Made by a program: the position numbers and the translations under genes
Notes under the pieces: model-generated
Databases searched by the model: none
Told to the model about the DNA's origin: nothing
What the model saw: only the letters and a program-made list of their open reading frames with translations
Source of the DNA: a virus
Direction: 5' to 3' (one strand)
Length of the DNA: 34,101 nt
IMG/VR virus record: IMGVR_UViG_3300032893_000204
Coordinates: 1 to 34,101 of that record
In this document: one piece after another, positions 9,781 through 28,868 of the stretch
Position numbering within the stretch: the first letter of the stretch is position 1
How the letters are laid out: each line of letters starts with the position of its first letter

Positions 9781-11133
9781 TTAATAATAATTCGAAACAT
9801 CATCCCTAAAAAATGAAGGCATAGCCTGATGGCCATTGACTGCTTCTTGATACATCTTATCAAGTGCTTCTGCAGAAAGTCCATCACGAGTTTTCATATG
9901 ACCGACACAGAGATATCTAATAGCATCAGCAGCATGAGAATAGATATCATGCAGCGGTGTTGCCTTATATACTTTCTTGTCAGAGTCATATTCACGACGA
10001 TAGTTCTCTAAAGCTTTAATTAATTGTTTACATCTTGATTCATCGATGTAAATTTTGGCTAATGCCGCACGAACAGACTCAATGCCATCCATTAGGGCTA
10101 TATTGGGAACAACAGTGAAATTAAGGCCCATTTTCTTCGCAATCTCTATTCGTGTCATGCCGGTACCAAATTCCTTTACGCCAATATCATGCGGTGCTAA
10201 ATGGATGCCATAAATATACGGCTTTGAATTGATAAGCTTTACGTAATGTTCTAAACCTTCTGAAGATTTTTCATAGTAATCTATGATTCGGATAGTAGTA
10301 CCAAAGTTCTGGAAAAAGATAATAACAGTACTGTCTCTTACACCAAGATCCCATGCAGTATGCACTTTAAGCGTTGGTTCCCACGGAACCTGATTAATCT
10401 GAAAGTTGAGTCTCATTCTATCAAGTTGTGTTTGATAAAATGATCCAGAAATACCTTGATCAAATGAGCAGTAGTATTCTTGTTCTACAAGGTCTTGAGA
10501 TATTTCTCCCCGATCAACGTCATTTTGTATCTGTTCTACACTTACATGGTGTGTATCATTTACTGTTAATCGATACGAAAACCATACATCAGGGTTCTGT
10601 TGTGCTATTTTCCAGAGCTCATAAAAATGATTACGCCCACGAGGAGTGGACTGAAATATCGCCCACCCATCATTAGCGCGCAAAATAGGTAGTGAATATG
10701 CATATCCTTCCGGAGATTGAAGTGCATATTCACTAAATACAATACCACGAGGATTAGTTCCAACAAGGGTATTATCAAAATTATCTGATCCTATAACTTG
10801 TATATACGAGCCATTGACTAATTTTATTCGCATCATGGCTTCATTTTTAGACTCTATAAGTTCACGTGGAATATAATCAAGGATACGCTGACCATCCATG
10901 GTAATCTGATCCCACAGAATACGACGACCCGAAGAAAAGGTAGGAAAGACATAATAATAAGAACCAACCTTCTTTAATGCCTCTCTATATATTATGTTAA
11001 AACAAAGAACGTCCTTACCGGAACGCCGAGGCATAATAAGAATAAGGCGCTTATATTTCGCCATCGCATCCCAGATAGGACGCTGATATTCACGTGGAGT
11101 AAATGTGAGGCCAAGGTCAATTGTCTGTGTCAT
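9781..11133 (-). CDS. terL: terminase large subunit
   Basis: 450 residues, the packaging motor. The ATPase half has Walker A MPRRSGKD (residues 34-41), Walker B IVFSEYA (131-137, catalytic Glu135) and coupling motif QSTPRG (161-166). The nuclease half has TAWDLGVRDST (Asp262, Asp267), IRIIDYYE (Asp285) and the late SHAADAIRYL (Asp403). All key residues are present. The enzyme cuts concatemeric DNA and drives it through the portal by ATP hydrolysis. It has its own promoter copy at 11201-11229. The AGAAGAAA ribosome binding site is moderate. Small terminase, portal, scaffold and capsid follow the usual head-gene order around it. Confidence 0.96.
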   Translation of the reverse strand: MTQTIDLGLTFTPREYQRPIWDAMAKYKRLILIMPRRSGKDVLCFNIIYREALKKVGSYYYVFPTFSSGRRILWDQITMDGQRILDYIPRELIESKNEAMMRIKLVNGSYIQVIGSDNFDNTLVGTNPRGIVFSEYALQSPEGYAYSLPILRANDGWAIFQSTPRGRNHFYELWKIAQQNPDVWFSYRLTVNDTHHVSVEQIQNDVDRGEISQDLVEQEYYCSFDQGISGSFYQTQLDRMRLNFQINQVPWEPTLKVHTAWDLGVRDSTVIIFFQNFGTTIRIIDYYEKSSEGLEHYVKLINSKPYIYGIHLAPHDIGVKEFGTGMTRIEIAKKMGLNFTVVPNIALMDGIESVRAALAKIYIDESRCKQLIKALENYRREYDSDKKVYKATPLHDIYSHAADAIRYLCVGHMKTRDGLSAEALDKMYQEAVNGHQAMPSFFRDDVSNYY

Positions 11134-11200
11134 ACATTTCTTCTAAAAAACGAATTGTCAAAGATCATTTTTCTCATGCTAAACCTCATTCACTATTTAT

Positions 11201-11229
11201 AGTGTATCATCAATATATTAACAAGTCAA
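11201..11229 (-). promoter_or_regulatory. promoter of the large terminase gene, second copy of the early promoter block
   Basis: TTGACT at 11229-11224, 17-base spacer, TACACT at 11206-11201, minus strand. The 37 bases 11205-11241 are identical to 14716-14752 on the plus strand. A palindrome CACTATAAATAGTG (11204-11191) overlaps this -10 and the start point and is missing from the other copy. The near-palindrome TTAATATATTGA lies in the spacer of both and is a candidate operator. Confidence 0.75.
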
Positions 11230-11273
11230 TACTTTTATTAACATTATTATAAATATATTTAATATTCTATTCT

Positions 11274-11600
11274 TTAAAAAGAAATACTATCTACAATCAT
11301 ATTAAGTTTTTCCACAATAAAAGAAATATATGCTTTATCAGCAACACTTATTTCAGACATATCAATATTCTTTAGCCATTTTACGCCAAGACTATAGATA
11401 AGCATGCGATCGCTGTCAGTATATAAATGAGGATCATCAGCAATAAATAAAAGATCATTATGATAGGGAAATACTACAGTACGATCTTCAACAAGATACA
11501 CAAAACACGGTTCATTTTCATACTGTTTATGGTATAGTAAATATCCAATTACTCCACAAACAATGGCTATAATTACTGTTACTGCATACCAATTCTTCAT
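11274..11600 (-). CDS. small single-pass membrane protein
   Basis: 108 residues starting MKNWYAVTVIIAIVCGVIGY, chosen because AGGAAG sits 6 nt before this ATG at 11600; a longer frame to 11732 would run through two hairpins. One N-terminal transmembrane helix (residues 5-24) is followed by an acidic, mostly soluble domain (YLVEDRTVVFPYHNDLLF, then ADKAYISFIVEKLNMIV). It sits between the two terminase genes, where a membrane protein is unexpected. The N-in anchor plus outer domain is compatible with a spanin-like or superinfection role, but nothing specific supports either. Confidence 0.65.
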   Translation of the reverse strand: MKNWYAVTVIIAIVCGVIGYLLYHKQYENEPCFVYLVEDRTVVFPYHNDLLFIADDPHLYTDSDRMLIYSLGVKWLKNIDMSEISVADKAYISFIVEKLNMIVDSISF

Positions 11601-11620
11601 TATTCTTCCTTTTTTAAATT

Positions 11621-11657
11621 CTATCCCCATATCATTATTAAAATGGCATGGGGATAG
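11621..11657. other. inverted repeat before the small membrane protein gene
   Basis: CTATCCCCAT (11621-11630) and ATGGGGATAG (11648-11657), a perfect 10-bp stem with a 17-base loop. On the minus strand it ends about 10 bases before the ribosome binding site of the 108-residue gene, so it could modulate that gene. No U-run follows on either strand. Confidence 0.55.
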
Positions 11658-11722
11658 ATAGTGTGTAGTAAGGGAGCAAGGATTTTTTCCATAAAAGGGA
11701 AAGCTCATGTTCTTTTTCAAGT

Positions 11723-11757
11723 GCATCCTCAAGTAAATGTCAAAACCTTGAGGATGC
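11723..11757. other. inverted repeat after the small terminase gene
   Basis: GCATCCTCAAG (11723-11733) and CTTGAGGATGC (11747-11757), a perfect 11-bp stem with a 13-base loop, beginning 20 bases past the small terminase stop. There is no U-run downstream on the minus strand, so it is probably not a simple terminator; transcript end protection or processing is possible. Confidence 0.6.
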
Positions 11758-11776
11758 GAGTAAAGGGAGTGCGAGG

Positions 11777-12241
11777 CTACTCTTTATTATCTACCATTTT
11801 ATAACCTGATGAGTCAACAAGTTGTATAACAGTTCCAGAATTGCTGCCATATCCTGCTATCTTTTCAGCAACTAATTCTCGCAATTCTTGTTTCTGTTCT
11901 TTTATTACTTCATCAAAACATGGCAGATACATTTTGCTAAACTCCGCCATCTTATAATCACCCTGCCATTGATCGCGAATATTTTTTGCAACTGCATCCA
12001 TTGCCATATCAAGTGCATGTTGCAGACTAGGATTCTCTTTGGCTTCTCTTTTAAGCTGCTTGTATGAAATATGCTTCTTTTTACAGAAATCGCTTATATG
12101 AACAGACTTCGTTTTTGATGCCCATTCTTCAAGCTCTACATGCAATCCGCCATCCTTATCTATCTTTCCACGCGCGCGTAGCTTATGATTGGGAAAGAGC
12201 TCCTGTCGCGTCATTCCCTCAGGAATTCTTATTGATGCCAT
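11777..12241 (-). CDS. terS: terminase small subunit
   Basis: 154 residues. A helix-turn-helix-like segment at about 48-67 (HISDFCKKKHISYKQLKREA) is followed by helices (PSLQHALDMAMDAVAKNIRD) and the KMAEFSKMYLPC region, an arrangement typical of small terminases that recognise the packaging site and stimulate the large subunit. The C-terminal tail (SSGYKMV) may contact the large subunit. AAGGAG lies 5 nt before the ATG. It overlaps the RusA-like gene by 23 bases. The large terminase gene follows after one membrane protein gene. Confidence 0.75.
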   Translation of the reverse strand: MASIRIPEGMTRQELFPNHKLRARGKIDKDGGLHVELEEWASKTKSVHISDFCKKKHISYKQLKREAKENPSLQHALDMAMDAVAKNIRDQWQGDYKMAEFSKMYLPCFDEVIKEQKQELRELVAEKIAGYGSNSGTVIQLVDSSGYKMVDNKE

Positions 12242-12626
12242 GTCTCTCCTTTTGAGGCATACGTTTACTAAATCTAATTATTGTTTTTGCTTCAGGACAT
12301 TCATAATACTTTGAAGCATTGACATGCGTCACAATATACTCATTTTGATACACAATTCCCCGCATAATATCATCAAGATACTTCAAAAGGGATGATATTG
12401 CTGGTTTGTTAGAAGCGTATCCCCTACTTTTTACAAATTCTCTATCAAAATAAAATTCAACATCGAGATCATACAACCCATTTAACAAGGGCTTATCATT
12501 ATGCTGATTACGTAACTGCTGTTGTTGGTTTAAACGATTAAGATTAAATTCGTCCAGTACTTTTCGTGCAGATTGAGATTGTTTTACAATAGATACAGGA
12601 GTCCCCATAATGGTATACACTATCAT
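12219..12626 (-). CDS. RusA-like protein lacking the catalytic aspartates
   Basis: 135 residues with the RusA Holliday-junction resolvase layout: an N-terminal G-TPVSIVKQSQSARK strand and loop, central DLDVEFYFDREF, then KPAISSLLKYLDDIMRGIVY, and a YYECPEAKTIIRF final strand. In active RusA the segment reads like P-D-I-D-N-L-L-K and later Y-D-D; here the first two Asp are Ala and Ser, and the third position reads Q-N-E. The enzyme may be inactive, rebuilt, or misaligned by me. RusA proteins trim branched DNA before packaging, which fits a place just ahead of the small terminase. Its start overlaps the previous stop by four bases (ATGA). Confidence 0.55.
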   Translation of the reverse strand: MIVYTIMGTPVSIVKQSQSARKVLDEFNLNRLNQQQQLRNQHNDKPLLNGLYDLDVEFYFDREFVKSRGYASNKPAISSLLKYLDDIMRGIVYQNEYIVTHVNASKYYECPEAKTIIRFSKRMPQKERHGINKNS

Positions 12627-13525
12627 TTTTTGCTCCTCTTATACTCTTCCCATTTTTCAACACAGGTTAACACATCATGTAACTTTTGACTAACAGGTAC
12701 CCATCCTTTATCCGTATCTTTATGTCCCCATCCGTTTGCATGAAAATACTTTTTGCGTTGAACATTAGACATATCTCTAAAAATATGCGGATGAACTACA
12801 CCTTTTGGCATAACCCAAGAACTTGGAGCTATAGTTTTTGTGTAAGAAGATGGTCCGTTAACAAAATCATGCTCAAAACTCTTGACTTCATTCTTCATTT
12901 GTTTATTTTTTAAAGAATTTATTAAAATAACATCTCTTAATTGTGAAACATTTCTCTCTGAATGCAGTTTTTCAGCATTCGCTGATGACAATAAAAGCAG
13001 TGAGAATAAGCCTGGTAATATAAAGCGTAACTCAGGAAGATACTTAACTAAGTAGTTAGCGGCTATAGCATCCTTCAAAACGGGCCCTAACGAATAATAA
13101 TTGGTCTCCTTAACAAACTGATCAACCGAGATAAGGCCAAGCTGTTCTAGGCGAACTGTGAGCCTAGATATTGTTTGATTAGATTTAAAGCCAACCGATG
13201 CCTTAAAGTAATCACGAGCTTTGTTGGATAAGTTATTACCACTTTTTATAATCTGTTTAACAAGGATGCGAGTAACTTTTAAATTGCGAGCAGTAAAAGC
13301 ACTCAATAAAGAACGAATACTTAATCCTTCCTTATGACTAATTTCTTGAGGTTTGAGATTATTTAAAGTTGACAAATAATCATTACGAGTGGAATTAGTT
13401 CTCTTAATTCTATTTTTTTTATTTTTTAAGCAAGATTCTGCTTGACTTGTTAAGAAACGAGGAGTAATCTTATCATGATTATCCTTGTTTTGGATTTTCG
13501 TTTGATTGTTTTTGCTTGGTGGCAT
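12623..13525 (-). CDS. winged-helix-like protein with an internal hydrophobic segment
   Basis: 300 residues, not recognised. The N-terminal 100 are basic. Residues about 103-147 (RDYFKASVGFKSNQTISRL, then EQLGLISVDQF and NYYSLGPVL) look like a winged helix as in phage replication initiators or regulators. Residues 166-184 (LRFILPGLFSLLLLSSANA) are strongly hydrophobic and end in an ANA signal-peptidase-like box, odd in mid-protein. The C-terminus has an aromatic/His cluster (VVHPHIFRDM, YFHANGWGHKDTDKGW). It starts the RusA-terminase run and lies beside a structured gap with inverted repeats, so a replication or regulatory role is possible. Confidence 0.65.
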   Translation of the reverse strand: MPPSKNNQTKIQNKDNHDKITPRFLTSQAESCLKNKKNRIKRTNSTRNDYLSTLNNLKPQEISHKEGLSIRSLLSAFTARNLKVTRILVKQIIKSGNNLSNKARDYFKASVGFKSNQTISRLTVRLEQLGLISVDQFVKETNYYSLGPVLKDAIAANYLVKYLPELRFILPGLFSLLLLSSANAEKLHSERNVSQLRDVILINSLKNKQMKNEVKSFEHDFVNGPSSYTKTIAPSSWVMPKGVVHPHIFRDMSNVQRKKYFHANGWGHKDTDKGWVPVSQKLHDVLTCVEKWEEYKRSKK

Positions 13526-13544
13526 AATGATCAGCTTTCTTTCG

Positions 13545-13579
13545 GTTCAGCGATAGATGGGGATCTAAGAGCGCTGAAC
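13545..13579. other. nested hairpin in the leader of the winged-helix-like gene
   Basis: Outer stem GTTCAGCG (13545-13552) with CGCTGAAC (13572-13579). Inside it AGAT-GGGG-ATCT (13555-13566). On the minus strand it ends about 20 bases before the ATG at 13525, so it lies in the mRNA leader and may control translation or mark a replication element. Confidence 0.55.
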
Positions 13580-13606
13580 ATATAGTTTTGAGGCGAAAAA
13601 ATTATA

Positions 13607-13637
13607 AGAGCTAACAACTGGTTAGCTCTATTTTTTT
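13607..13637. terminator. rho-independent terminator, plus strand strong, possibly bidirectional
   Basis: AGAGCTAAC-AACTG-GTTAGCTCT (13607-13629), then A and seven T on the plus strand. On the minus strand the stem is followed by TATAATTTTTT, a weaker tract that could end the transcript of the HTH and Cys-rich genes. No plus-strand gene lies upstream to need it. Confidence 0.7.
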
Positions 13638-13722
13638 CTCATTGTTTTTTCAAAGTATATCTTTTTTTTAAGATACGTAAAGTCCAGACATTTGGTATAG
13701 CACAAGAAATTGTGTTATCTTG

Positions 13723-13749
13723 AGAACCTAGTTTTCTAGGTTCTTTTTT
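13723..13749 (+). terminator. plus-strand terminator overlapping the end of a minus gene
   Basis: AGAACCTAG-TTTT-CTAGGTTCT (13723-13744), then a run of T to 13749 and another seven T after one G. On the minus strand the same stem holds the stop codon of the 168-residue gene and lacks a U-run. A second hairpin CACAA-GAAA-TTGTG (13701-13714) precedes it. Together they look like the 3' end of a short plus-strand RNA. Confidence 0.65.
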
Positions 13750-14234
13750 GTTTTTTTGTTCTTTGATGATACGTCAATGTCTTTTATAATGTCCATAACT
13801 CCTGGTTCACATCTATCACAAAAACAATAATTTAGAGCAAAATTTGTTCCTATAGTTGTAATAAGAGCTATACTATTTTTGTCTTCTATAGGTTTGCAAA
13901 GATCATTAATTAGAAGAAGACAGTATGATCCAGGACATAAGTCTTCTTTAAAAGAAGGCCATCTTTTAATAAGATCCTGTTTCATTTGCTGTATTACCTT
14001 TGGTTTTTTTGGAAATAGATAATTTGAAGTTTTTTTACATTTACTACAGTCACAATACATATCAGTCATACACCCTAACATAATTCGTATGTCATAAGCT
14101 GATTCAATAAATAAACTCATGGGCGTTTCCTTTGCAATCTGAGTCATTATCTTACCGAATGCCTGACCAGGACATAGTTTGCTTTTGTTTTCCAAACTAT
14201 ATTTTTTATATTCTTCTCTATCAAACTTTTGCAT
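13728..14234 (-). CDS. early protein with two C-x-C-x2-C motifs
   Basis: 168 residues. Two short Cys clusters, YCDCSKCKK around residue 60 and YCFCDRCEPG around 140, could bind metal together or separately. Between them are KEDLCPGSYCLLLIND and other scattered Cys. There are no membrane segments, and the C-terminus is Lys/Asn-rich. AAAGGGAT lies 6 nt before the ATG. It overlaps the 69-residue gene by 14 bases and ends that early leftward operon. The same motif recurs in the neighbouring 69-residue protein and in the 117-residue protein at 16338. Function unknown. Confidence 0.72.
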   Translation of the reverse strand: MQKFDREEYKKYSLENKSKLCPGQAFGKIMTQIAKETPMSLFIESAYDIRIMLGCMTDMYCDCSKCKKTSNYLFPKKPKVIQQMKQDLIKRWPSFKEDLCPGSYCLLLINDLCKPIEDKNSIALITTIGTNFALNYCFCDRCEPGVMDIIKDIDVSSKNKKTKKNLEN

Positions 14235-14430
14235 TATTTATCCCTTTACAGCATTCACATTCACAATTACGTCGCTTATTTTTTCTCGCTTCATGACCTT
14301 GTTTTTGTAGATCCAAAATATAATCAGAAGGTATAATCTGAGAATTTGTCATTGATTTTATAATTTCATCTAAAACATGCATATGACTTACATGCAAACA
14401 TTTAGTAGATTTATTGTGACTGCTTTTCAT
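14221..14430 (-). CDS. small early protein with a C-terminal Cys cluster
   Basis: 69 residues. A helical body (HVLDEIIKSMTNSQIIPSDY) is followed by the basic GHEARKNKRRNCECECCKG with C-x-C-x-C-C. The start at 14430 overlaps the HTH gene by 20 bases, and an internal ATG at 14382 is an alternative. It is the middle gene of a three-gene leftward operon with overlaps at both ends, implying coupled expression. The Cys cluster is like that of its downstream neighbour. Function unknown. Confidence 0.65.
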   Translation of the reverse strand: MKSSHNKSTKCLHVSHMHVLDEIIKSMTNSQIIPSDYILDLQKQGHEARKNKRRNCECECCKGINNAKV

Positions 14431-14641
14431 GCTTTTTATCTTCCAAAAACTTCTTAACAGTTAAAATGACCTTGATGTTAGAGCTTTGTTGTTCTCCTTT
14501 AATGCCTAAGAACTTCTTCAAAGAATTGAATGAAATACCCAATTCCTTACACAAAGCAGTATAGGTAATAGGGTTTTCGCACATGTATTTAACTAATTCA
14601 TTCGCTACTACTTTTACGTCACAATCTTTTAATAAATTCAT
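14411..14641 (-). CDS. small HTH regulator
   Basis: 76 residues from the ATG at 14641, preceded by AAGGAA at 4 to 5 nt; an upstream in-frame ATG at 14680 would lie across the promoter. The helix-turn-helix spans roughly residues 24-48, with YTALCKELGISFNSLKKFLG as helix 2, turn and recognition helix. A basic C-terminal helix follows. It is the first gene leftward of the divergent promoter gap, the classic place for a Cro- or repressor-like switch protein, and may bind the operator-like TTAATATATTGA in the opposite promoter. Confidence 0.75.
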   Translation of the reverse strand: MNLLKDCDVKVVANELVKYMCENPITYTALCKELGISFNSLKKFLGIKGEQQSSNIKVILTVKKFLEDKKHEKQSQ

Positions 14642-14671
14642 ACAATTTCCTTTTAAGTAATATATACATAT

Positions 14672-14699
14672 ATTATACATTCTTTTAGAGTAATTACAA
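14672..14699 (-). promoter_or_regulatory. leftward early promoter for the HTH operon
   Basis: TTGTAA at 14699-14694, 16-base spacer, perfect TATAAT at 14677-14672, minus strand. It lies about 30 bases ahead of the HTH start and back to back with the rightward promoter at 14728-14756. Confidence 0.65.
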
Positions 14700-14727
14700 T
14701 ATATTTATAAAGATATTAATAAAAGTA

Positions 14728-14756
14728 TTGACTTGTTAATATATTGATGATAATCT
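14728..14756 (+). promoter_or_regulatory. rightward early promoter with a candidate operator
   Basis: TTGACT (14728-14733), 17-base spacer, TAATCT (14751-14756). The near-palindrome TTAATATATTGA fills the spacer. Bases 14716-14752 are repeated exactly on the other strand at 11205-11241. It drives the gene starting at 14790 and the operon to 16691. Confidence 0.75.
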
Positions 14757-14789
14757 ATAAATAAGTAAACAATAACTAGAAAGGAAGAA

Positions 14790-15011
14790 ATGGAAAATAA
14801 ATACCCTTACGTCACTCTTCATGAAAGAGTTAGCAATCAATTAAATAGATATCTTTTTGACGAAGAAAAGCAACAATTGCTGGAAGATTTAAACATAACT
14901 GAGGCAGAAATAGCTACTTTCTGCGAAAAAGACCTTAGTCTTCTTTTAGATAATATAGATATATGGAAATACAATCATAGCGACTGGCTCGATCATAATA
15001 GAGATATTTAA
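14790..15011 (+). CDS. small acidic early protein
   Basis: 73 residues, first gene of the rightward early operon, with AAAGGAAG 4 nt before the ATG. It is acidic with aromatic residues at the end (LLLDNIDIWKYNHSDWLDH). There are no Cys, signal or membrane segments. Small acidic first-early proteins often inhibit a host factor, but nothing here shows a target. No family recognised. Confidence 0.7.
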   Translation: MENKYPYVTLHERVSNQLNRYLFDEEKQQLLEDLNITEAEIATFCEKDLSLLLDNIDIWKYNHSDWLDHNRDI

Positions 15012-15030
15012 ATTTCATAAAAGGGAGAGT

Positions 15031-15495
15031 ATGAATATCTATTTTCATATCAATAATCAATCAATTCGTTCGGTAGTAGAAAAAGCATCAATACATCGAG
15101 CATCAATAAAATGTCCGCGTAATGTGTTTTTGTGTGAAGATAGTATGTGTTGTGCGTTAGCATTACCATGGTTTTGTAGTGAAGAACAAAAAGGAGAAGA
15201 CGTGAATAAAATACTAAAAAGATTGCGTAATTTTAAGCAATCTTTGCATCCATCAGATATGTGCAAAGATGAAAAAGAAAAAGCAGTAAGTCTCGGCAAA
15301 AGTCATACCTGTATTTGTAGAGAAGTACGTGAAATGGAAAATCAAACAAAGATAGATGAACTTGTATGGAAAATGGTAGGAGTAGCGCATGAAATAATAG
15401 GCATGGACAAAGAACTGAAAAAATATTATCCAGAGATGATCTTTTTTTTAAATTACCTTGTATCTAAATATCCAGCACTAAAGGAGAAAAAATGA
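15031..15495 (+). CDS. Cys-rich early protein
   Basis: 154 residues, AAAAGGGAG 4 nt before the ATG. Eight Cys lie in the first 100 residues (FLCEDSMCCALALPWFC, then HTCICREV), and the rest is helical (WKMVGVAHEIIGMDKELKKY). It is possibly metal-binding. Its stop overlaps the next start by four bases (ATGA). Second gene of the early operon. Function unknown. Confidence 0.7.
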   Translation: MNIYFHINNQSIRSVVEKASIHRASIKCPRNVFLCEDSMCCALALPWFCSEEQKGEDVNKILKRLRNFKQSLHPSDMCKDEKEKAVSLGKSHTCICREVREMENQTKIDELVWKMVGVAHEIIGMDKELKKYYPEMIFFLNYLVSKYPALKEKK

Positions 15496-15743
15496 ATGCA
15501 TTTTTAGTTGTTTTATTATTAGCTGCTAACATTGTAATAGAAACAGAAGACTGTAATGGAAGGAAATTATTAACCTATAAAAAACATAAACAAACGCTGA
15601 TTTACTTTTTATTAACAAAAAATGCAGCAGAATGTGCCAGGCATTATCAAAAACCTTTGGCTGAAGATGATGAAGAATTAAAAAGAATAGAACAATTTTT
15701 TCTAGAAGAAGACACTGATGGAACTACAATCACTACAGCTTAA
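15492..15743 (+). CDS. small early protein with hydrophobic N-terminus
   Basis: 83 residues, AAAGGAG 6 nt before the ATG. MNAFLVVLLLAANIVIETED is hydrophobic and may be a signal peptide or anchor, though it lacks N-terminal basic residues. The rest is helical and acidic at the end (AEDDEELKRIEQFFLEED). It overlaps the genes on both sides (4 and 26 bases). Function unknown. Confidence 0.62.
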   Translation: MNAFLVVLLLAANIVIETEDCNGRKLLTYKKHKQTLIYFLLTKNAAECARHYQKPLAEDDEELKRIEQFFLEEDTDGTTITTA

Positions 15744-16323
15744 TGAATTATTTGCAGCACTAGCGAAAGCTCAGGGCGAATATAAAATTGCTGAAAAAAA
15801 CAAAGACAATCCCTTCTTTAAATCATCATATGCAGGATACGAAGATCTTGTAGAAGCAACACGGCCTGCATTAGAAAAAAATGGATTGTCGGTAAATGCG
15901 CGTATTGTAACTCGTGAAGGACAAAAGTATTTCCAGTTGATTCTTGGTCATTCTTCTGGTCAATATATGATTTCAGAAATTGATGTATCTCCTCCAAAAA
16001 CCGATATTCAATCTCAGGGAAGTTATAGAAGTTATCTTTTACGTTATGCATATAAAGAATTAACAGGTGTTGTTACCTCTGATGATCCAGATGATGATGA
16101 TGGCGAACAAGCAATGGAAAGAAACCATCCTCAAAAACAATCGCTTGTACAAACAATAACCATAGAGCAACAAGAAATATTAGAAAATGAGCTCCAAGAT
16201 GATCATGATTTAAAATATGATATGCTTGCAAAATTACGTATATCATCCTTAAATCAGATTCCTAAAAGCTCTTTCAATGCAATTTTAACTCGGTTGAGAG
16301 AAATTAAATCACTCAAAAAATAA
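15718..16323 (+). CDS. erf: ERF-family single-strand annealing protein
   Basis: 201 residues. The N-terminal ERF domain is clear: LNELFAALAKAQGEY, NPFFKSSYAGYEDLVEATRP, ALEKNGLSVNARI, then GSYRSYLLRYAYKELTGV at 101-118 (the G-x3-Y-x2-RY motif) and an acidic VTSDDPDDDDG at 119-129. A linker and a small C-terminal helical domain follow. ERF proteins form rings that anneal complementary single strands, used to circularise or concatenate incoming phage DNA. The start overlaps the previous gene by 26 bases, with a weak AGAAGAAG ahead. A RusA-like protein on the other arm may act in the same pathway. Confidence 0.9.
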   Translation: MELQSLQLNELFAALAKAQGEYKIAEKNKDNPFFKSSYAGYEDLVEATRPALEKNGLSVNARIVTREGQKYFQLILGHSSGQYMISEIDVSPPKTDIQSQGSYRSYLLRYAYKELTGVVTSDDPDDDDGEQAMERNHPQKQSLVQTITIEQQEILENELQDDHDLKYDMLAKLRISSLNQIPKSSFNAILTRLREIKSLKK

Positions 16324-16337
16324 ATTAAAGGATAGTA

Positions 16338-16691
16338 ATGGAAGCTCAAAAAAAAGAATGCACTATACCATTTTCTTTGCAACAAATAGAAGAATCGTTG
16401 CAAAATATTATGGAATTATCAGCAAAAAATAGTGAAATTCCTGCTGAGGTAATGAATCAATTTAGAAGTTATTCAGCAGGATTTTTCAAAAAATATGGGA
16501 AAGAATGCAGTTGTGATGCATGTTATGCAATGGTAAGTAAGCTTATTACTATTATTATGAGTAAGATTAATGTAAAAGTACTTAATCCATATGAAATTAA
16601 TATATCATCCATTAGTTTTGACATCAATGAGCATGTTCCATCACTTACTGTTGTCGTAGAAGGAAACAATGAGGAACCAGCAAAGTCATAA
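16338..16691 (+). CDS. early protein with a C-x-C-x2-C motif
   Basis: 117 residues, AAAGGAT 5 nt before the ATG. The N-terminal half is helical (FSLQQIEESLQNIMELSAK). At about residue 54-59 KECSCDACYAM shows the same C-x-C-(S/D/E)-x-C pattern as two leftward early proteins. The C-terminal half is beta-like (INISSISFDINEHVPSLTVV). It is the last gene of the rightward early operon, before a strong terminator. Function unknown. Confidence 0.7.
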   Translation: MEAQKKECTIPFSLQQIEESLQNIMELSAKNSEIPAEVMNQFRSYSAGFFKKYGKECSCDACYAMVSKLITIIMSKINVKVLNPYEINISSISFDINEHVPSLTVVVEGNNEEPAKS

Positions 16692-16849: not shown

Positions 16850-17845
16850 ATGGCAAATTCATCATTAGATGCAATAAGAACAAAGGTAAGACGTTTAACA
16901 CGTTCACCTTCTCCTGCTCAGCTTTCTGACGCACAGTTAGATGAATATATCAATACGTTCATTCAATATGATTTTCCTGAACATTTAAGAACATTTACGT
17001 TGCGTTCAACATTTACGTTCTTTTGTCAGCCATTTATTGATACGTATGAAACAAGCGTAAATCCTGCAGATCAGTTTTATAACTGGAAAAATATTTATAC
17101 CACTATTCATGAACCAATATTTATTGCAGGAAATAGGGCATTCTTTTCACAAGACAGAGATCAATTTTTTGCTATCTATCCCTTAACAAACTTTTTGAAT
17201 CAAGAAGCAACAGGTGATGGAGTTACTACAGTATTTAATGGGATATTGAATAGCTTTAACGGCGGTCCTGCTTCGGTAACACCTGTTTTGCGTAATCAAG
17301 TCATGTTTGATTCGATTGATGCAAATGGTGTGGGGATGCAAGTTCATGATGATGGATTAGGTAATTTAATTGGGGATGGTAATGGAAATATTAATTATCT
17401 TACTGGTGCTTATAACCTCAACTGGAATATCCCTCCTGGCGTCGGCATTCCTATAAATAGCCAGACAGTTCCGTATCAGCCTTCAAAACCATTGTCTTTG
17501 TTGTTTTATGACAGCAAAATAACATTGCGTCCTGTGCCTGATCAATCATATCGTATTGATATGGAAGTATATGTACGTCCAACAGAATTATTAAATGCCA
17601 ACCAATCTCCACAATTAGAAGAATGGTGGCAGTATATTGCATACGGTGCAGCAAAAAAAGTATTTGAAGATCGTATGGATATACAAAGTGTTCAAATGAT
17701 ACTGCCAGAATATAAAAAACAAGAAAACTTAGTTATCAGAAGAACAATTGTTCAACAAACAGGTACCCGTTCAGCAACTATTTATACTGAGCAAACACAA
17801 TTAGGAACCTTTGGAACCGGTGGATTATTTGGACCAGGATGGTAA
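16850..17845 (+). CDS. head-tail adaptor / tail connector-like protein
   Basis: 331 residues, first gene of the tail operon, with GAGGAG 5 nt before the ATG. The helical N-terminus (LDAIRTKVRRLTRSPSPAQL, then SDAQLDEYINTFIQYDFPEH) resembles the gp4/gp11-type adaptors that sit under the portal in short-tailed phages. A beta-rich insertion with GDGVTTVFNG lies near residue 123. The conserved late helix QLEEWWQYIAYGAAKKVFED at about 260-280 is followed by YKKQENLVIRRTIVQQT. It likely joins portal to nozzle. The family is judged from memory of podophage adaptors. Confidence 0.65.
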   Translation: MANSSLDAIRTKVRRLTRSPSPAQLSDAQLDEYINTFIQYDFPEHLRTFTLRSTFTFFCQPFIDTYETSVNPADQFYNWKNIYTTIHEPIFIAGNRAFFSQDRDQFFAIYPLTNFLNQEATGDGVTTVFNGILNSFNGGPASVTPVLRNQVMFDSIDANGVGMQVHDDGLGNLIGDGNGNINYLTGAYNLNWNIPPGVGIPINSQTVPYQPSKPLSLLFYDSKITLRPVPDQSYRIDMEVYVRPTELLNANQSPQLEEWWQYIAYGAAKKVFEDRMDIQSVQMILPEYKKQENLVIRRTIVQQTGTRSATIYTEQTQLGTFGTGGLFGPGW

Positions 17846-17846
17846 C

Positions 17847-18464
17847 ATGGCAAATTATGATAATAATATTGTAAATCCGGATGATTTGTTGAGTGATTCT
17901 CAATCTGAGATACAACAAAACTTTCAGGCAATATTAGACCTTATTAGCGTTAATCATTATCCATTTGGTGACCCTAATGCAGGAAAACATCAGTTTATGA
18001 CTCATCTTGCAAACCGGGGAAACATAGGAAGAGTTAATCCGGCTACTGAAAAACTTTCATATGGAAAACGATATGCGCCGACCAATAAAACTGAATGGTT
18101 TGCTTCAACCAATGCAGCTTCTGGTTTTCTTTTGTCTGGACGCAATGACCCATTTCAGCAGCCAACATGGTCTATGATTGCTGATAAAGGAATTGCGGTA
18201 GTAACCATGACTGTAGTTGCAGCTCGTGGTCCTTTACGGGTTATTTTTCCTGCAGGTCAAGGGATACCAACGTTTTCTAACGTATTAAATGTTCAGCTAT
18301 CTATAGAAAGTAGTGGTATTGCTTCTCCAAATAATGGGAGTGCATATATTACTGCGTTTGATAGGCTTGGTGTTGACGTGCAAGTATATTCAAATGTGGC
18401 AGGAAATATGAATGCTTTTGGTTTTTTTGTAATGGCAATAGGAACAATTGGTCCCGTTTTTTAA
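17847..18464 (+). CDS. tail fibre-like protein, paralog of the next gene
   Basis: 205 residues. I start at 17847 after AGGATGG rather than at an in-frame ATG at 17811 inside the adaptor gene. The N-terminus has the pattern SEIQQNFQAILDLISVNHYP, then GKHQFMT, shared with the next protein (IHDNFADIETLIQVNHVGF, then GKHKFVTF). The NF..I..LI.VNH...GKH pattern is frequent at the start of small phage tail proteins. The C-terminal part is beta-rich. It is probably a minor tail or fibre component. Confidence 0.7.
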   Translation: MANYDNNIVNPDDLLSDSQSEIQQNFQAILDLISVNHYPFGDPNAGKHQFMTHLANRGNIGRVNPATEKLSYGKRYAPTNKTEWFASTNAASGFLLSGRNDPFQQPTWSMIADKGIAVVTMTVVAARGPLRVIFPAGQGIPTFSNVLNVQLSIESSGIASPNNGSAYITAFDRLGVDVQVYSNVAGNMNAFGFFVMAIGTIGPVF

Positions 18465-18473
18465 GGAAATAGA

Positions 18474-19061
18474 ATGGCATATGATAATAATGTTCCTCAA
18501 GCAACACAAACAATATCTGCAACACAGCAACCTATACATGATAACTTTGCTGACATTGAAACATTAATTCAGGTAAATCATGTTGGCTTTAATGTTGCTG
18601 ATGAAGGAAAGCATAAGTTTGTTACATTCCCTGTTCAAGCAGTAACACCAGTTCCAGCAGCAGGAGATATCAATTTTTTTTCTCGAACATCACCATACAC
18701 TGCTAATCCTGAGCTCTGTTTATCCAGATCTGATGGATCTGTTACTGAAATGTCCGCAAATTTTAATAATGGATGGGCATTTACTGCTTCAGGATTACTC
18801 TTAAAATGGGGAACAACGCTCATTCCAAGTGTAGCGACAAATGTTGTATATCCCGTGGCAGCAAATATACCAGTATTCTCTCAAGTGTTTTCAGTATTGA
18901 TTACTGTTGCGTATCCTTCTGCGGTCGATGAAAATAAAAACGTAACACTCATTGGGTTTGCTAATCCATTATTCTTTACTGCAGTGGGAACGCAAAGAAC
19001 TGCTACAGCTCCTTATGTAGGCAATGCAACCATTTATTATCTTGCACTAGGAAAGGTATAA
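18474..19061 (+). CDS. tail fibre-like protein, paralog of the previous gene
   Basis: 195 residues, AAGGAAAT 4 nt before the ATG. It shares the N-terminal NF..I..LI.VNH...GKHKFVTFP pattern and beta-rich C-terminal half with its upstream neighbour, so the two probably arose by tandem duplication. The C-terminal sequences have diverged (WAFTASGLLLKWGTTLIP), as expected for surface tail parts. It lies between the adaptor and nozzle genes. Confidence 0.72.
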   Translation: MAYDNNVPQATQTISATQQPIHDNFADIETLIQVNHVGFNVADEGKHKFVTFPVQAVTPVPAAGDINFFSRTSPYTANPELCLSRSDGSVTEMSANFNNGWAFTASGLLLKWGTTLIPSVATNVVYPVAANIPVFSQVFSVLITVAYPSAVDENKNVTLIGFANPLFFTAVGTQRTATAPYVGNATIYYLALGKV

Positions 19062-19062
19062 A

Positions 19063-21285
19063 ATGACCGCAAAACGATTTATGATCGCTCCTTTTGAAGA
19101 TGGTCTTGAAACTGATGTAAAGCCATGGCTTATTTCCGATAGTGCATTTGCAAAGTTAGAAAATGCTTATCTTTACTATGGAGTAGTTCGTAAGCGTTTT
19201 GGTGGAACCTATATGAATACCTCAATCAATCCTTTGTACGGCCAATTATATTCACGACTTGGTATGCACATAGGAGATACTGATGGCTCAGGAAATGCTA
19301 CTATTACTACTATAGAATTTTCTGGTGGGAATGTTGGTCAACTGTTTGGTGTAGGAACACAAACAACGGGTCATGAAATATTTACTATCACTTCTGTAGT
19401 TGCCGGACCACAACCAATGCTTGCTACCGGTGCAGGAAATGGAACATTTGATTCAGCTACCGACACGGTTGATATTGTTGGATCTATCCCTAATGCGCCT
19501 GTTTATTGGTATCCTGCTTTTCCGGTAATGGGATTGCCAAATTTTATATCAGATCCTAATACCGATGAAGAATTATTTGGATTTGATACACGATTTGCGT
19601 ATCACTATGTTGATGCAGGTAATGGAAGGCGATGGGAAAGATTAGGAACGATAACATTTAATGGCAATGACACTGATTTTTTTTGGTCTATAAACTATCG
19701 TGGTGCTTTGGCAGATAATTATCTTCTGTTTACCACTAATAATGTTGATAATATTGTGTATTGGGATCCTTCAGCTGTAACATGGAATAATTATACTCGT
19801 GTTTATTCTAATACTCCTGGAGAAACCATAGAAGGTTGTTCTGTTATGGCTTCATTTAAAGAACGACTATTATTATTTAATACTTTAGAAGTTGTAAATG
19901 TTCCACCTCTTACATTAAAACGTTTCCCTAATCGTATTCGATTCTCACAAGTAGGTAATCCTCTTGCAGTTAATGCGTTTAATACAAATACTACACCAGG
20001 TGGTAGTTTTCTTGATCTTCCTACGACAGAAGCAATTATTAGTGTCAATTCTTTGAAAGATAGGTTAATTGTATTCTGTCAGGAAAGTACCTGGGAGCTT
20101 GTATATACCAATAACAAAGCAGATCCTTTCAGGGTTCAACGTATTAATAATGAACTTGGTGTAGAATCACCGTTCTCAACAGTTCTTTTTGATAAAGCAG
20201 TACTTGGCATCGGCCAAACGGGTATTCATGCGTGTAACGGCACAAATGTTGAGCGTATTGACGAGAAAATACGTCAGCTTATATTTCAGATCAACAATGA
20301 TAATGATGGACCTGATAGGGTCTATGGTATTCGTGATTATGCGAATGAATTGGTGTACTGGACATATCCTGATCAGCAAGATAACCCAATATTTCCCAAT
20401 AAGGTATTAGTCTATAATTACCGTAAGGGATCATGGGCGATCAACGATGATAGTATTACGGCATTTGGTAATTTCTTCCTCCCACAAGATTTGCAATGGC
20501 AACAAGTACAAATTCAATGGCAACAGGCAAATTTTTCATGGAATAGTGCAAGTCAGCAATCTCGTTTTAGGTCTATCATAGCGGGAAATCAAGAAGGGTT
20601 TACGTTTATCGTGAATGCTGATGTTTCTCGAAATGCTGGTGTGTTATCAATAACTGATATTAACTTTGCTACCCCAAACATCCCACAACTGGAAATCATT
20701 AATCACAACCTAAAAGCTGGTGATTTTATTTATATTGAAAACGTATTTGGCGTTAATGTTGCGGATTTTAATACCACTATCTTCCAGGTAATAGGAGTCG
20801 TGAGTGATGATATCATTCAATTGTCACGACAATCTATTGGTGGTGAACAATACAATGGTGGTGGTGTTGTGACACGAGTAAGTAGAATAAACATCCTCAC
20901 AAAGCAATATAACTTCTTTCAACAAGATGGAAGAAATGCCTATGTGTCAAAGGTAGATTTTAATGTTGATCGCACTGCAAATGGTGAAATAGCAGTAGAC
21001 TACTATACTTCAACATCTAATCAATCATTAGTTACTACCGGATCTACGACTGGCACATTATTGGGAACTGCGGTATTAGAAACGACACCGTATTTAACAA
21101 TAACCTATGAACTTTTACAGTCTCAGCTATGGCATCCAATTTATATTCAAGCAGAAGGCGAGTATATTCAGATAAGGCTTTATTTGAATAATGACCAAAT
21201 GTTTGATCCAAATATTGCTTTTGATGATTTCGAATTAAACGGTATGATAATTTATGCGGAGCCTACTTCAACGCGTCTTCAATAA
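19063..21285 (+). CDS. large tail hub / nozzle-like protein
   Basis: 740 residues, the largest protein in the window. It begins IAPFEDGLETDVKPWLISD and SAFAKLENAYLYYGVVRKRF, a pattern I know from podophage tail tubular B / gp10-like tail needle-knob base proteins, where it precedes beta-propeller repeats. Propeller-like segments follow (DRLIVFCQESTWELVYTNN, RVYGIRDYANELVYWTYPD, KVLVYNYRKGSWAINDD). A later FCCH-like domain is visible (PQLEIINHNLKAGDFIYIEN). It likely closes the tail under the adaptor. The exact equivalence to T7 gp12 or P22 gp10 is not settled by sequence. Confidence 0.7.
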   Translation: MTAKRFMIAPFEDGLETDVKPWLISDSAFAKLENAYLYYGVVRKRFGGTYMNTSINPLYGQLYSRLGMHIGDTDGSGNATITTIEFSGGNVGQLFGVGTQTTGHEIFTITSVVAGPQPMLATGAGNGTFDSATDTVDIVGSIPNAPVYWYPAFPVMGLPNFISDPNTDEELFGFDTRFAYHYVDAGNGRRWERLGTITFNGNDTDFFWSINYRGALADNYLLFTTNNVDNIVYWDPSAVTWNNYTRVYSNTPGETIEGCSVMASFKERLLLFNTLEVVNVPPLTLKRFPNRIRFSQVGNPLAVNAFNTNTTPGGSFLDLPTTEAIISVNSLKDRLIVFCQESTWELVYTNNKADPFRVQRINNELGVESPFSTVLFDKAVLGIGQTGIHACNGTNVERIDEKIRQLIFQINNDNDGPDRVYGIRDYANELVYWTYPDQQDNPIFPNKVLVYNYRKGSWAINDDSITAFGNFFLPQDLQWQQVQIQWQQANFSWNSASQQSRFRSIIAGNQEGFTFIVNADVSRNAGVLSITDINFATPNIPQLEIINHNLKAGDFIYIENVFGVNVADFNTTIFQVIGVVSDDIIQLSRQSIGGEQYNGGGVVTRVSRINILTKQYNFFQQDGRNAYVSKVDFNVDRTANGEIAVDYYTSTSNQSLVTTGSTTGTLLGTAVLETTPYLTITYELLQSQLWHPIYIQAEGEYIQIRLYLNNDQMFDPNIAFDDFELNGMIIYAEPTSTRLQ

Positions 21286-21299
21286 AAGAAAGGATAGCG

Positions 21300-21767
21300 A
21301 TGAAATATTTAACACCTCTGCTCGCGATAACATGCCTGAGCGCTATGGATGTTCATATTACTATTGTTGATCGAGAAGATCGTAAAACATCACAAGATTC
21401 TGCTGCTTCAGTTTCAGAAGACATCTTAAAGCCATTCATAAAAACATATCTTAAAAAAGATAACGAACACATCGAAGCACGAATTTTACCCCATTTGAGC
21501 GAAAAATTTGATGAATTTCCTGATGAACTAAAACTATTTAAAAATGCTATAGAACAACCCCAAAAATTTGAGGACGTTATTCATCTTTTTATAACTGATG
21601 CGTTAGATGATGCATTTAAAAAACAAGATGAATACTTCCAAAAATACAAGGAGGATCAGGAAGACAAAATACGCAATGCTCGTTATGGATTGGCTACTGC
21701 TATATTTGCGGGAATATTTAGTACACTTACAGCAGTTCTTACAACATATTTCAGTATTCACCATTAA
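21300..21767 (+). CDS. secreted protein with C-terminal membrane anchor
   Basis: 155 residues, AAAGGAT 4 nt before the ATG. Signal peptide MKYLTPLLAITCLSA with likely cleavage before MDVH. The body is helical and charged (residues 40-120, KKQDEYFQKYKEDQEDK near its end). A C-terminal transmembrane helix ARYGLATAIFAGIFSTLTAV follows. It may be membrane-anchored from the periplasmic side, like a spanin-type or envelope-modifying protein. It shares the LSA-Met-acidic cleavage context with the protein at 8744. Its stop overlaps the convergent next gene by four bases (TTAA). Confidence 0.7.
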   Translation: MKYLTPLLAITCLSAMDVHITIVDREDRKTSQDSAASVSEDILKPFIKTYLKKDNEHIEARILPHLSEKFDEFPDELKLFKNAIEQPQKFEDVIHLFITDALDDAFKKQDEYFQKYKEDQEDKIRNARYGLATAIFAGIFSTLTAVLTTYFSIHH

Positions 21768-22303
21768 CTTTCTTTCAAATACTCAAGAATAATGAAAGCA
21801 CTGGTAAAATCAGAATAATCGATAGCCGTAGTTATAGATACATCAGTATCATCAACAACAAGCGCAATATTGCTATTTAAAACAGGTGTAGCAAAGGGTA
21901 ATGGTAAATATATATACGGCACAGAATCTTTCGTTGCACACCCATAAATACGCGTGAATCTAAAATTAGCATCAATGCCAACTATTCCATGTAGTTCAGT
22001 GTCAGTTCCCGCATTGGGTAATGGTTTATTCCACCATACAACTTTCCTATACACTGCGCGTGGCTCTTGTTGTGTACTATATACTGACCCTACTGCTGAA
22101 AAAAAATACTGGCTATTGGCAAACTCATTTAAAAAATAATATCCCGTATCCTTCATGTTCATCAAAAGAGAGATATTATTTACTGTTTGCGTTAATTGAA
22201 CGAGAAATTCTTTAAGACCTGGCTCTTTTATCTCAAGTTGTTCTATGTCATATACTGCTGTTGTGGGAATCAATGCCGAATCTGGCACAGGATAGTCAGG
22301 CAT
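21764..22303 (-). CDS. probable tail protein on the opposite strand
   Basis: 179 residues, minus strand inside the plus-strand tail block, with AAAGGAT 5 nt before the ATG. The N-terminal part is helical (IKEPGLKEFLVQLTQTVNNI), then beta-rich with YYFLNEFANSQYFF and LHGIVGIDANFRFTRIYG. Composition resembles small tail or fibre subunits. Reverse orientation within a tail operon suggests separate timing or a later insertion. No family recognised. Confidence 0.68.
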   Translation of the reverse strand: MPDYPVPDSALIPTTAVYDIEQLEIKEPGLKEFLVQLTQTVNNISLLMNMKDTGYYFLNEFANSQYFFSAVGSVYSTQQEPRAVYRKVVWWNKPLPNAGTDTELHGIVGIDANFRFTRIYGCATKDSVPYIYLPLPFATPVLNSNIALVVDDTDVSITTAIDYSDFTSAFIILEYLKES

Positions 22304-22380
22304 AGTGATCCTTTGTGTTCACAATGAATATAACTCATACTAATCTGGTAGTAATCATACTTAAAAAGAAAGGAAATGTA

Positions 22381-23346
22381 ATGCCACAAAAATTAAATAT
22401 GGCTCCCATTTTTCCGGATGTAAAATATACTGCAGGCCAACCCCGATTAAATTATTTACCAACAAAAACAGAAGGCCAGCAATTTTCACAAATGGCTGCA
22501 ATGGCTCCTGCTTTATATAATTTATATAGAGGCTGGAATGCTCCTGATATTGGACCTGTAGTTCAAGAAGAACAAAGACGATTTCAACAAGAAACATTAC
22601 CATCCTTAATGGAGCAGTTTGCAGGTGGCGGGAGTCAAGGTGCATTATTACGTGGTTTGCAAGGAGCGCAAGGTGATATTGCAACACGACTAGGTGCCTT
22701 AAGACAGCAGCAACAGTTTGAATTGCAAAAAGAACGTCAAGGATTGATTCCTCAACTTCTTAATCTTGGCCTTTCACCCATGGCTACTCCTCATTTAACT
22801 GATGAAGAAATTCAAAATGTACCACAGCTTTTAGGATCTCGTATTGCACAAGGACCTGTAGGAAAAGAGGTAGGAACAATAGCAAAAGGAGCAGAAGATC
22901 TTACAGGTCAATTATTAAAAGGTGGACGATATATTGCTAACGAGTTGTCAGATGCAGCAAAAGATTACTTAAAATCAAAAGGAATTACCTTACCAACGCC
23001 TCCTAAAACACCTGCAAGTTATGAAACAAGTGGAGGCATAGAAGCACTTAACAAAAGAATTGAAGATACTGCATTAGCTGCTGGAATTAATCCACAAGAA
23101 GCATCCCAATTAAAATTTAGCCCTGATCTTCAAAATGTATTATTTGAACGACATAAGCCATTACTAAAAGAAATAGAAAATATTACACAAAGAAGTGATT
23201 TTGAAAATTATTTACCATTTTTCAGACTACTTCCACAACTTAAAACTGTTGATGATGTAAAACAATTTATAAAAATGCTGAAATCATGGACTAATCGAAG
23301 AATGAAAAAGAGATATGGTAAATTAGAAAAAAAGTTAGGGCAGTAA
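22381..23346 (+). CDS. internal virion / ejection-type protein
   Basis: 321 residues starting at 22381 after AAAGGAAA; the upstream in-frame ATG at 22315 has no ribosome binding site. It is Gln-rich in the first half (QFSQMAAMAPALYNLYRGW, RRFQQETLPSLMEQF, RLGALRQQQQFELQKERQGL), with helices throughout and a basic C-terminal tail (SWTNRRMKKRYGKLEKK). It is the first of four consecutive helix- or Gly/Ala-rich genes at the place where short-tailed phages encode proteins ejected ahead of DNA. Assigned by position and composition. Confidence 0.6.
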   Translation: MPQKLNMAPIFPDVKYTAGQPRLNYLPTKTEGQQFSQMAAMAPALYNLYRGWNAPDIGPVVQEEQRRFQQETLPSLMEQFAGGGSQGALLRGLQGAQGDIATRLGALRQQQQFELQKERQGLIPQLLNLGLSPMATPHLTDEEIQNVPQLLGSRIAQGPVGKEVGTIAKGAEDLTGQLLKGGRYIANELSDAAKDYLKSKGITLPTPPKTPASYETSGGIEALNKRIEDTALAAGINPQEASQLKFSPDLQNVLFERHKPLLKEIENITQRSDFENYLPFFRLLPQLKTVDDVKQFIKMLKSWTNRRMKKRYGKLEKKLGQ

Positions 23347-23347
23347 A

Positions 23348-24070
23348 ATGGCTAGAATAATGCGCAGACCGCCAATGTTTAATGCCACTCCTGTTTCTCC
23401 GCAGCCTATTTCTACTAACTGGCAAGATACATTATATCAATATGGACAGCAATATGGACCTTATGTTTTACCAACATTACTATCAGGACTTGGTGGTGCA
23501 GTAGGTTCATACAATGCACAAAAATTTATTCAACAACCACAACCAGCTCAACAGGCACAACAACCTACACAACAACAACAACCACAACCAGCTCAACAGG
23601 CACAACAACCTACACAACAAGAACAGCCACAACAAGCTATACCAGCACAGAATACCAATCAAAATCAACAAATGGGCATGTTTGATCTTTTATCGCAGCT
23701 CATATCTCATCGTGCCGATATGCTTGGCGCAAATATACCTTCATATCCTTCTCGGTTATTTTCACAAGCTGTTGAAGCATCAAATTCACAACAAGGTTCA
23801 CCACAGGGACCACCAAAATATACATCTACAGGACCACAGTTTGCATTTGATCAATTGGTTGGTGGAGGTGCACAGTATAATCCATTGTCAGCGCTTGGTG
23901 ATTTTTCTCAACCGCAACAGCCTCAAAAAGAATGGTGGAGAACAAGCGCTAATCAATTGGGTGGTTTACTTCAAGGACTTGCACCATTAGCAGGAACATA
24001 TGGAGGTCTACCAGGTATATTGGGTGGAGCAGCATTAGGAGCTACTGGTTATGGATTACGACAACTGTAA
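23348..24070 (+). CDS. Gln/Pro-rich ejection-type protein
   Basis: 240 residues. There is an aromatic N-terminal helix (WQDTLYQYGQQYGPYVLPTL), then a low-complexity Gln/Pro/Ala stretch at about 60-105 encoded by a 45-bp tandem repeat. The C-terminal glycine-rich hydrophobic segment (GLLQGLAPLAGTYGGLPGIL) is able to enter a membrane. TAGGG lies ahead of the start, one base after the previous stop. Likely second protein of the ejection set. Confidence 0.6.
   Translation: MARIMRRPPMFNATPVSPQPISTNWQDTLYQYGQQYGPYVLPTLLSGLGGAVGSYNAQKFIQQPQPAQQAQQPTQQQQPQPAQQAQQPTQQEQPQQAIPAQNTNQNQQMGMFDLLSQLISHRADMLGANIPSYPSRLFSQAVEASNSQQGSPQGPPKYTSTGPQFAFDQLVGGGAQYNPLSALGDFSQPQQPQKEWWRTSANQLGGLLQGLAPLAGTYGGLPGILGGAALGATGYGLRQL
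23534..23623 (+). repeat. two 45-bp tandem repeats in the Gln/Pro-rich gene
   Basis: Two units starting at 23534 and 23579 encode QPQPAQQAQQPTQQQ and a near-identical copy. The period is 15 codons, so copy-number change keeps the frame and would lengthen the flexible linker. Confidence 0.8.
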
Positions 24071-24079
24071 AGGAATGTC

Positions 24080-24523
24080 ATGAAACAGGGATTATTAGAA
24101 AAATTGTCACAGCTTGCAATGAAAAAAATACTTCCTATGCTACCTGCCGCAGGAGCAGCTATTGGAACAGCAACAGGATTACCATTTGGAGGAATGATTG
24201 GAGGTGCGGCAGGAGGACTTGCAAGTAGTGGAATTAATGCATTACTTTCTGGCCTATCGCCACAAAACCAAAGTCATTTTCAAGGGTTAGGAATAAATCC
24301 CCAACTTTATGGATTAGATCTAAGACAACCGCAGCAACAATCGGCTGGGCTAGAAGCGTTGTTACAAGGAACTGGAAATACATTAGGTAATCTTGCTGGT
24401 AATGCATTCGGATATGGTGTTGAACAGTTAATACCACAAAGTGAATCAGAAACCATAGAAAATTTATTAAGACTCTTACCGCCTGATGTGATAAAGAAGT
24501 TTTTAGATGCTCAACATTTTTAA
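24080..24523 (+). CDS. Gly/Ala-rich ejection-type protein
   Basis: 147 residues, AAAGGAAT 4 nt before the ATG. A short basic amphipathic helix (KQGLLEKLSQLAMKKILPML) is followed by a glycine-zipper-like hydrophobic stretch (GLPFGGMIGGAAGGLASSGI) and a soluble C-terminal part. Glycine-zipper segments are typical of small phage proteins that cross membranes on infection. Third in the ejection-type set. Confidence 0.6.
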   Translation: MKQGLLEKLSQLAMKKILPMLPAAGAAIGTATGLPFGGMIGGAAGGLASSGINALLSGLSPQNQSHFQGLGINPQLYGLDLRQPQQQSAGLEALLQGTGNTLGNLAGNAFGYGVEQLIPQSESETIENLLRLLPPDVIKKFLDAQHF

Positions 24524-24538
24524 TAAAAAGGAATAGTA

Positions 24539-26125: not shown

Positions 26126-26141
26126 ATAATACTGATTATTT

Positions 26142-26554: not shown

Positions 26555-26566
26555 GATATCTTCCTA

Positions 26567-26752: not shown

Positions 26753-26781
26753 ATAAATCCTTTTATTATGTTTATATTATA

Positions 26782-28861: not shown

Positions 28862-28868
28862 AATAAAT

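Follow-up and report, generated by a model that had tools for sequence, protein, structure and literature searches.

Two outward-facing copies of a putative host-type promoter in an uncultured phage with an inverted tail block

The divergent early promoters of lambda-type phages, pL and pR, share operators, and the promoters of T7-like phages are long repeated blocks. Cluster A mycobacteriophages carry about 24 stoperators, asymmetric 13-bp sites that are mostly intergenic and are not promoters, and short repeats recombine in other phages (PMC5712189). The window studied here, meaning the whole stretch of DNA analysed, looks like a complete virus record; it is 34,101 bp long and has a direct terminal repeat of 126 bp. 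It resembles the Cluster A operator/stoperator system in having related elements of regulator size at more than one place in the genome, and repeats able to recombine, but differs in that the elements appear to be two full promoters (PMC5712189).

The initial annotation had described a 37-bp block that is identical on opposite strands. The block is real and slightly larger than described. Positions 14716-14752 (plus) and 11241-11205 (minus) match at 37/37 bp, and this core lies within an inverted pair spanning 66 bp at 92% identity, the longest inverted repeat in the window and the sole one with E<=1e-6. The 25-mer TTGACTTGTTAATATATTGATGATA occurs twice in the window against none expected from 100 dinucleotide shuffles. 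All five mismatches in the 66 bp fall outside the core (p = 0.013 for random placement), which weakly suggests constraint, or correction between the copies. The region had no blastn match among cultured phages and the window had no match in an Rfam scan. Searching by blastn with an 86-bp block alone gave weak, A/T-rich matches to Staphylococcus and Streptococcus phages, which we judged to be chance or generic promoter similarity. The two copies are as follows.

14698..14763, plus strand: promoter block, Erf-side copy; core 14716-14752, -35 TTGACT at 14728-14733, -10 TAATCT at 14751-14756, predicted start ~14763
11194..11259, minus strand: promoter block, terL copy; core 11241-11205, -35 TTGACT at 11229-11224, extended -10 TGaTACACT with its hexamer at 11206-11201, predicted start ~11194

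Each copy does place TTGACT 17 bp from a -10, as had been claimed, the -10 being TACACT in the terL copy and TAATCT in the plus copy. With a sigma-70 matrix the terL copy, with its extended -10, ranks 3 among all window sites; the plus copy ranks 21, and its -10 agrees with the consensus at just 3/6 positions. A scan for hexamers near TTGACA and TATAAT, 16-18 bp apart, found TTGACT-17-TACACT with the TG extension (11229-11201), matching at 9/12 positions. The plus copy, TTGACT-17-TAATCT, is weaker at 8/12 and is missing from the consensus-scan list. Both copies have an A/T content of 93% between about -65 and -36, compared with 64% for the genome, as would be expected of an UP-type region. Counted in steps of 10 bp, the copies agree at 10/10 positions over -63..-54, 7/10 over -53..-44 and 10/10 throughout -43..-14, then at 8/10 over -13..-4, 6/10 over -3..+6 and 1/10 over +7..+16. 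As the similarity fades near the predicted start, the duplicated unit covers a predicted promoter and stops near the putative start of transcription, which argues against an element acting in the RNA, such as an antitermination site. The block looks like a complete host-type (sigma-70-like) promoter, from about -66 to +1, present in two outward-facing copies.

It is extremely improbable that the copies are promoters for a phage-encoded single-subunit RNA polymerase. A long repeated block is what the T7-like phages would lead one to expect, but there are two copies only and their sigma-70 hexamers are good. PF00940 had no match in the window or in 11 relatives, in a search whose control was uninformative, and the largest ORF (740 aa) matches a virion structural protein family. 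This structural protein had no match in the cultured-phage collection.

The copies face outwards into the following features.

14790..16691, plus strand: Erf module downstream of the plus copy, encoding proteins of 73, 154, 83, 201 (Erf) and 117 aa
16747..16790, plus strand: predicted intrinsic terminator (dG -17.6 kcal/mol, z -3.4) between the Erf module, which it ends, and the tail genes
9781..11133, minus strand: TerL, the large terminase, whose gene opens the packaging/capsid arm; from here the arm extends leftwards, across the record ends, as far as 32083

Erf, an annealing protein, is encoded by one of five genes that follow the plus copy. Downstream of the terL copy come terL and the portal, scaffold and capsid genes, a series that continues across the record ends to 32083. 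The claim that the block drives both arms holds, as a promoter prediction, for the first genes of each arm. It does not extend to the tail genes, which are parted from the plus copy by the predicted terminator at 16747-16790 and so would need read-through or another promoter.

Reading by eye, we saw two further features of the leaders. The leader of the first tail gene holds an inverted repeat, GCTTCTC...GAGAAGC (16795-16849), that includes the ribosome-binding site and might limit translation. A 19-codon frame at 11131-11190 (minus) runs from the predicted start of the terL transcript, and its end overlaps the terL ATG; the frame may encode a leader peptide or be there by chance. Within the packaging/capsid arm, the major capsid gene (35-3133, minus) lies in four pieces (3133-3092, 2342-2070, 892-842 and 622-35) separated by three inserts, one with an HNH-type ORF (2428-3018), one with an ORF matching both HNH and LAGLIDADG (954-1982) and a third without a long ORF. 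No Rfam intron model matched these inserts. By tblastn, the capsid gene is interrupted by more than 150 nt in 44 of the 104 relatives in which it is spanned.

Searches with the portal and tail proteins identified a large uncultured family, and we mapped the window's genes onto the loci of about 110 relatives. In all of the 94 testable relatives the first tail gene (window position 16850) is on the same strand as the capsid-arm genes and follows them. Portal and the first tail gene (tA) are co-directional in 50/50 relatives, and TerL and Erf are on opposite strands in 16/16. The whole tail block is inverted in the window alone, giving two divergent arms, and a single inversion explains the layout.

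16850..32056, plus strand: tail/fibre block, inverted compared with 94/94 testable relatives
32060..32079, either strand: predicted bidirectional terminator where the two arms converge

One breakpoint would fall in the interval from 32079 to the gene that ends at 32083, and the second in that from the Erf-module terminator (~16790) to 16850. The sensible terminators predicted at the new junctions make a real genome more likely than a chimeric assembly. Ten full or near-full relatives follow a common plan, and none has a comparable inverted promoter pair. Among relative loci of 9 kb or longer, none contains an inverted repeat at E<=1e-6, and a search for duplicated sequence in the 400 bp ahead of terL, covering 31 relatives, yielded short matches only, of at most 41 bp. 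A TerL search of genome contigs returned no match, and an Erf search of IMG/VR a single distant one.

The relative G005 (L103) has its fibre genes on the Erf strand and no duplicated block, which shows that relocation does not require duplication. The link between duplication and tail inversion is a correlation in one genome (n=1). We offer only tentatively, as possible but on the unlikely side, a reading in which the inverted tail operon lost its upstream late promoter and selection favoured copying the whole 66-bp promoter, a regulatory repair by duplication that would leave both divergent arms on one switch. The fibre-gene move in G005 is a second, partial relocation within the family, and the divergent region of that genome has back-to-back promoters whose -35 boxes form TTGACATATATTGTCAA.

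The region ahead of terL differs between the window and its closest relative, L003, which is 81% identical in TerL and portal. There the upstream gene overlaps terL (-20 nt) and no promoter lies between them, while the window has about 640 extra bp (11134-11776).

11274..11600, minus strand: 108-aa ORF with an N-terminal hydrophobic stretch, between the gene in the terS position and the terL promoter; absent here in L003
11777..12241, minus strand: gene in the small-terminase position; in L003 its relative, 31% identical, overlaps the start of terL

In 27 of 33 relatives terL begins no more than 39 nt from the upstream gene, which leaves no room for a promoter there. The relatives also differ within TerL itself: in L003 (717-3101) the TerL gene appears to hold an in-frame, intein-like insert after ...YSHAC, and at the 5' ends of L025 and L026 such an insert appears to end before ...NSIVG / ...NSGKD. 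The window's TerL is without one.

Promoters resembling the block were found in two relatives, L071 (34/41 positions) and L047 (31/41), compared with a maximum of 27 under a Markov null, and both head leftward operons in divergent regions. In L071, TTGACT-N17-TACACTATAAATAGT stands at the head of the leftward arm, which holds Erf in the full contig G016; in L047, TTAATAAAAGTATTGACA-N16-TAAACT heads a two-gene leftward operon between RusA and TerL. Given these positions, and the lack of room ahead of terL in most relatives, the Erf-side copy is probably the original and the terL copy its derivative. Searching IMG/VR with a degenerate promoter pattern recovered L071 again and two unrelated phage contigs without homologues of the window (L216 and L217), which fit TTGACW-N17-TACACTATAAATAGT. 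The motif thus has generic elements, and part of the similarity may be general promoter convergence. The block's conservation in relatives, which the initial annotation had proposed to check by motif search, is partial: the 37-bp unit is not conserved, as its exact 27-mers have no match in IMG/VR and L003 is without a terL promoter, but the promoter architecture and parts of the sequence are shared.

These comparisons also bear on whether the terL copy is a recent by-product of duplication or recombination, a moron-like cassette of the 108-aa ORF and a promoter with no shared regulation. The overlap in L003 set against the extra 640 bp in the window, and the position of the terL copy downstream of the extra ORF, both fit such a cassette. 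However, the placement of all five differences outside the core hints at constraint, and the terL copy is the better promoter of the two and keeps the TACACTATAAATAGT of L071. We consider a cassette of this kind quite unlikely.

The block and its surroundings also contain dyads.

11191..11204, minus strand: dyad CACTATAAATAGTG, covering the -10 and start in the terL copy and degenerate in the plus one; mostly present (ACTATAAATAGT) in the leftward promoter of L071
14658..14675, strand not assigned: dyad TAATATATGTATATATTA over the -10 and start of the predicted HTH-gene promoter; candidate autoregulatory operator

The element said to be peculiar to the terL copy, CACTATTTATAGTG, lies exactly at 11191-11204, where it spans the -10 and start; the plus copy lacks it. 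The proposal that the dyad adds an extra control on the packaging genes was not borne out, as L071 has TACACTATAAATAGT in the promoter of its leftward, Erf-side arm. Similar 6+2+6 dyads number 15 in the window, so that the dyad is by itself unremarkable. Because the TACACTATAAATAGT of L071 survives in the terL copy but not in the plus copy, CACTATAAATAGTG is more likely an ancestral promoter feature that was lost from the plus copy.

The spacer shared by the two copies holds TTAATATATTGA, an imperfect dyad with 5/6 pairs. When up to 2 mismatches are allowed, we count 24 occurrences compared with 14.8 expected; the dyad is thus not distinctive outside the block and is common in this A/T-rich genome. 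Two relatives have perfect dyads at the same spacer, inside it in L047 (TCTTATATAAGA) and over it in L071 (TACATATGTA), which differ in sequence and phase. This difference may reflect regulators of different specificity, although chance in A/T-rich DNA could also produce it.

The simplest candidate for a regulator is encoded between the two copies.

14411..14641, minus strand: 76-aa HTH protein, candidate regulator, predicted four-helix and Cro/XRE-like; first gene of the TerL-direction arm
14672..14699, minus strand: predicted HTH-gene promoter, TTGTAA-16-TATAAT, divergent from the plus copy

The gene lies beside the divergent region, its identity coming from fold prediction and a family search with weak matches. 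The predicted fold has four helices (pLDDT 78), and its best structural matches are SinR, HipB, C.Esp1396I, P22 c2 and 434 Cro, all weak (E 0.15 and above). An iterated profile search found distant relatives of the protein in about ten family members. At the loci inspected their genes share the strand of TerL, and most of them closely follow an A/T-rich divergent region. It is plausible that one regulator acts on both copies. Elsewhere in this region, a stem with T-runs on both strands (13607-13629), between a 168-aa gene and a replication-like gene, may end the HTH operon. Several small proteins encoded at 13728-14430 and 15031-16691 have Cys-rich motifs (CDCSKCK, CECECCK, CSCDAC) and belong to no clear family.

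A regulator of this type raises the possibility of a pair like lambda pL/pR, in which the HTH protein represses both arms through the shared spacer dyad and establishes a quiescent state. Such a pair would account for outward promoters flanking a region with an HTH gene, for a spacer TTAATATATTGA that is identical in both copies and a dyad over the HTH gene's own promoter, and for the resemblance of the model to SinR, HipB, P22 c2 and 434 Cro; longer, perfect dyads lie in the spacer of L047 and over that of L071. The structural match is weak, however (best E 0.15), and the window's own spacer dyad is imperfect and of a common kind. Tyrosine integrase (PF00589) is absent from the window and from 11 relatives in a search whose controls were positive in 14/14 cases, so that lysogeny is not indicated. 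We regard such a jointly repressed pair as unlikely.

It seems fairly probable that the promoter was duplicated in the lineage in which the tail was inverted, and that both arms could share one on-switch. The ancestral copy would have headed the leftward Erf operon, in a divergent control region next to the HTH gene, and the second would have been placed ahead of terL, where most relatives presumably rely on read-through from the upstream gene. Host RNA polymerase would use both copies, and the shared spacer might be the target of a DNA-binding regulator, for which the 76-aa HTH protein is the simplest candidate, so that both arms would be switched together. The arrival of the terL copy may also have been connected, perhaps in time too, with the inversion of the tail, by which a single late operon would have become two divergent arms.

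The initial annotation had also pointed out that the two copies could recombine. Their length (66 bp, 37 of them identical) and the Erf-type annealing protein encoded by the phage make this possible, and 13-bp repeats yield deletions in relatives of mycobacteriophage D29 (PMC5712189). Recombination between them would flip the 3.4-kb early region and would separate terL from its upstream gene. Yet RusA and TerL share one orientation in the window, as they do in all relatives that yielded both, so that no flipped isomer was seen, and the searched proteins include no invertase or site-specific recombinase. An invertible segment is highly improbable.

Three family members, L193, L194 and L195, are the only ones found in genome contigs, from bins assigned to Simkaniaceae, Methanomicrobiales and Parachlamydia. 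Two of the three point to Chlamydiota, which may, on the basis of binning alone, be the host. We found no direct literature on divergent late arms with inverted promoters, or on tailed chlamydial phages.

Late operons of phages are rarely broken, because their parts must be made together. The parts of this locus are ordinary, and the rearrangement becomes clear, and open to testing, through comparison with 94 relatives. Here the virion genes form two divergent arms and an entire promoter appears twice, a layout that could show how regulation is restored after rearrangement. The analysis also gives a first map of the control region for a large uncultured phage family, possibly one infecting Chlamydiota.

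Among known systems, the nearest is the window's own uncultured family (L003, L025, L026, L035-L195), which shares its gene modules, its divergent Erf and TerL arms and relatives of its HTH gene. The closest members are 58-81% identical to the window in TerL and 55-81% in portal. The family differs from the window in that its tail genes are co-directional with the capsid genes and the gene upstream of terL usually abuts it; nor was a duplicated inverted promoter seen in it. Cultured phages, namely the podoviruses BcepMigl, BcepIL02, DC1 and KPP25 (portal ~23-24% identical over 66-78%) and Stenotrophomonas and Pelagibacter phages (TerL 37-43% identical), are too distant for the promoters to be compared. 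As with lambda pL and pR, the window has outward promoters on either side of a control region containing an HTH gene, and a single regulator could govern both. In contrast to lambda, no integrase or lysogeny module was found in the window by the PF00589 search, and the entire promoter, not the operators alone, is duplicated, with one copy heading the packaging/capsid arm.
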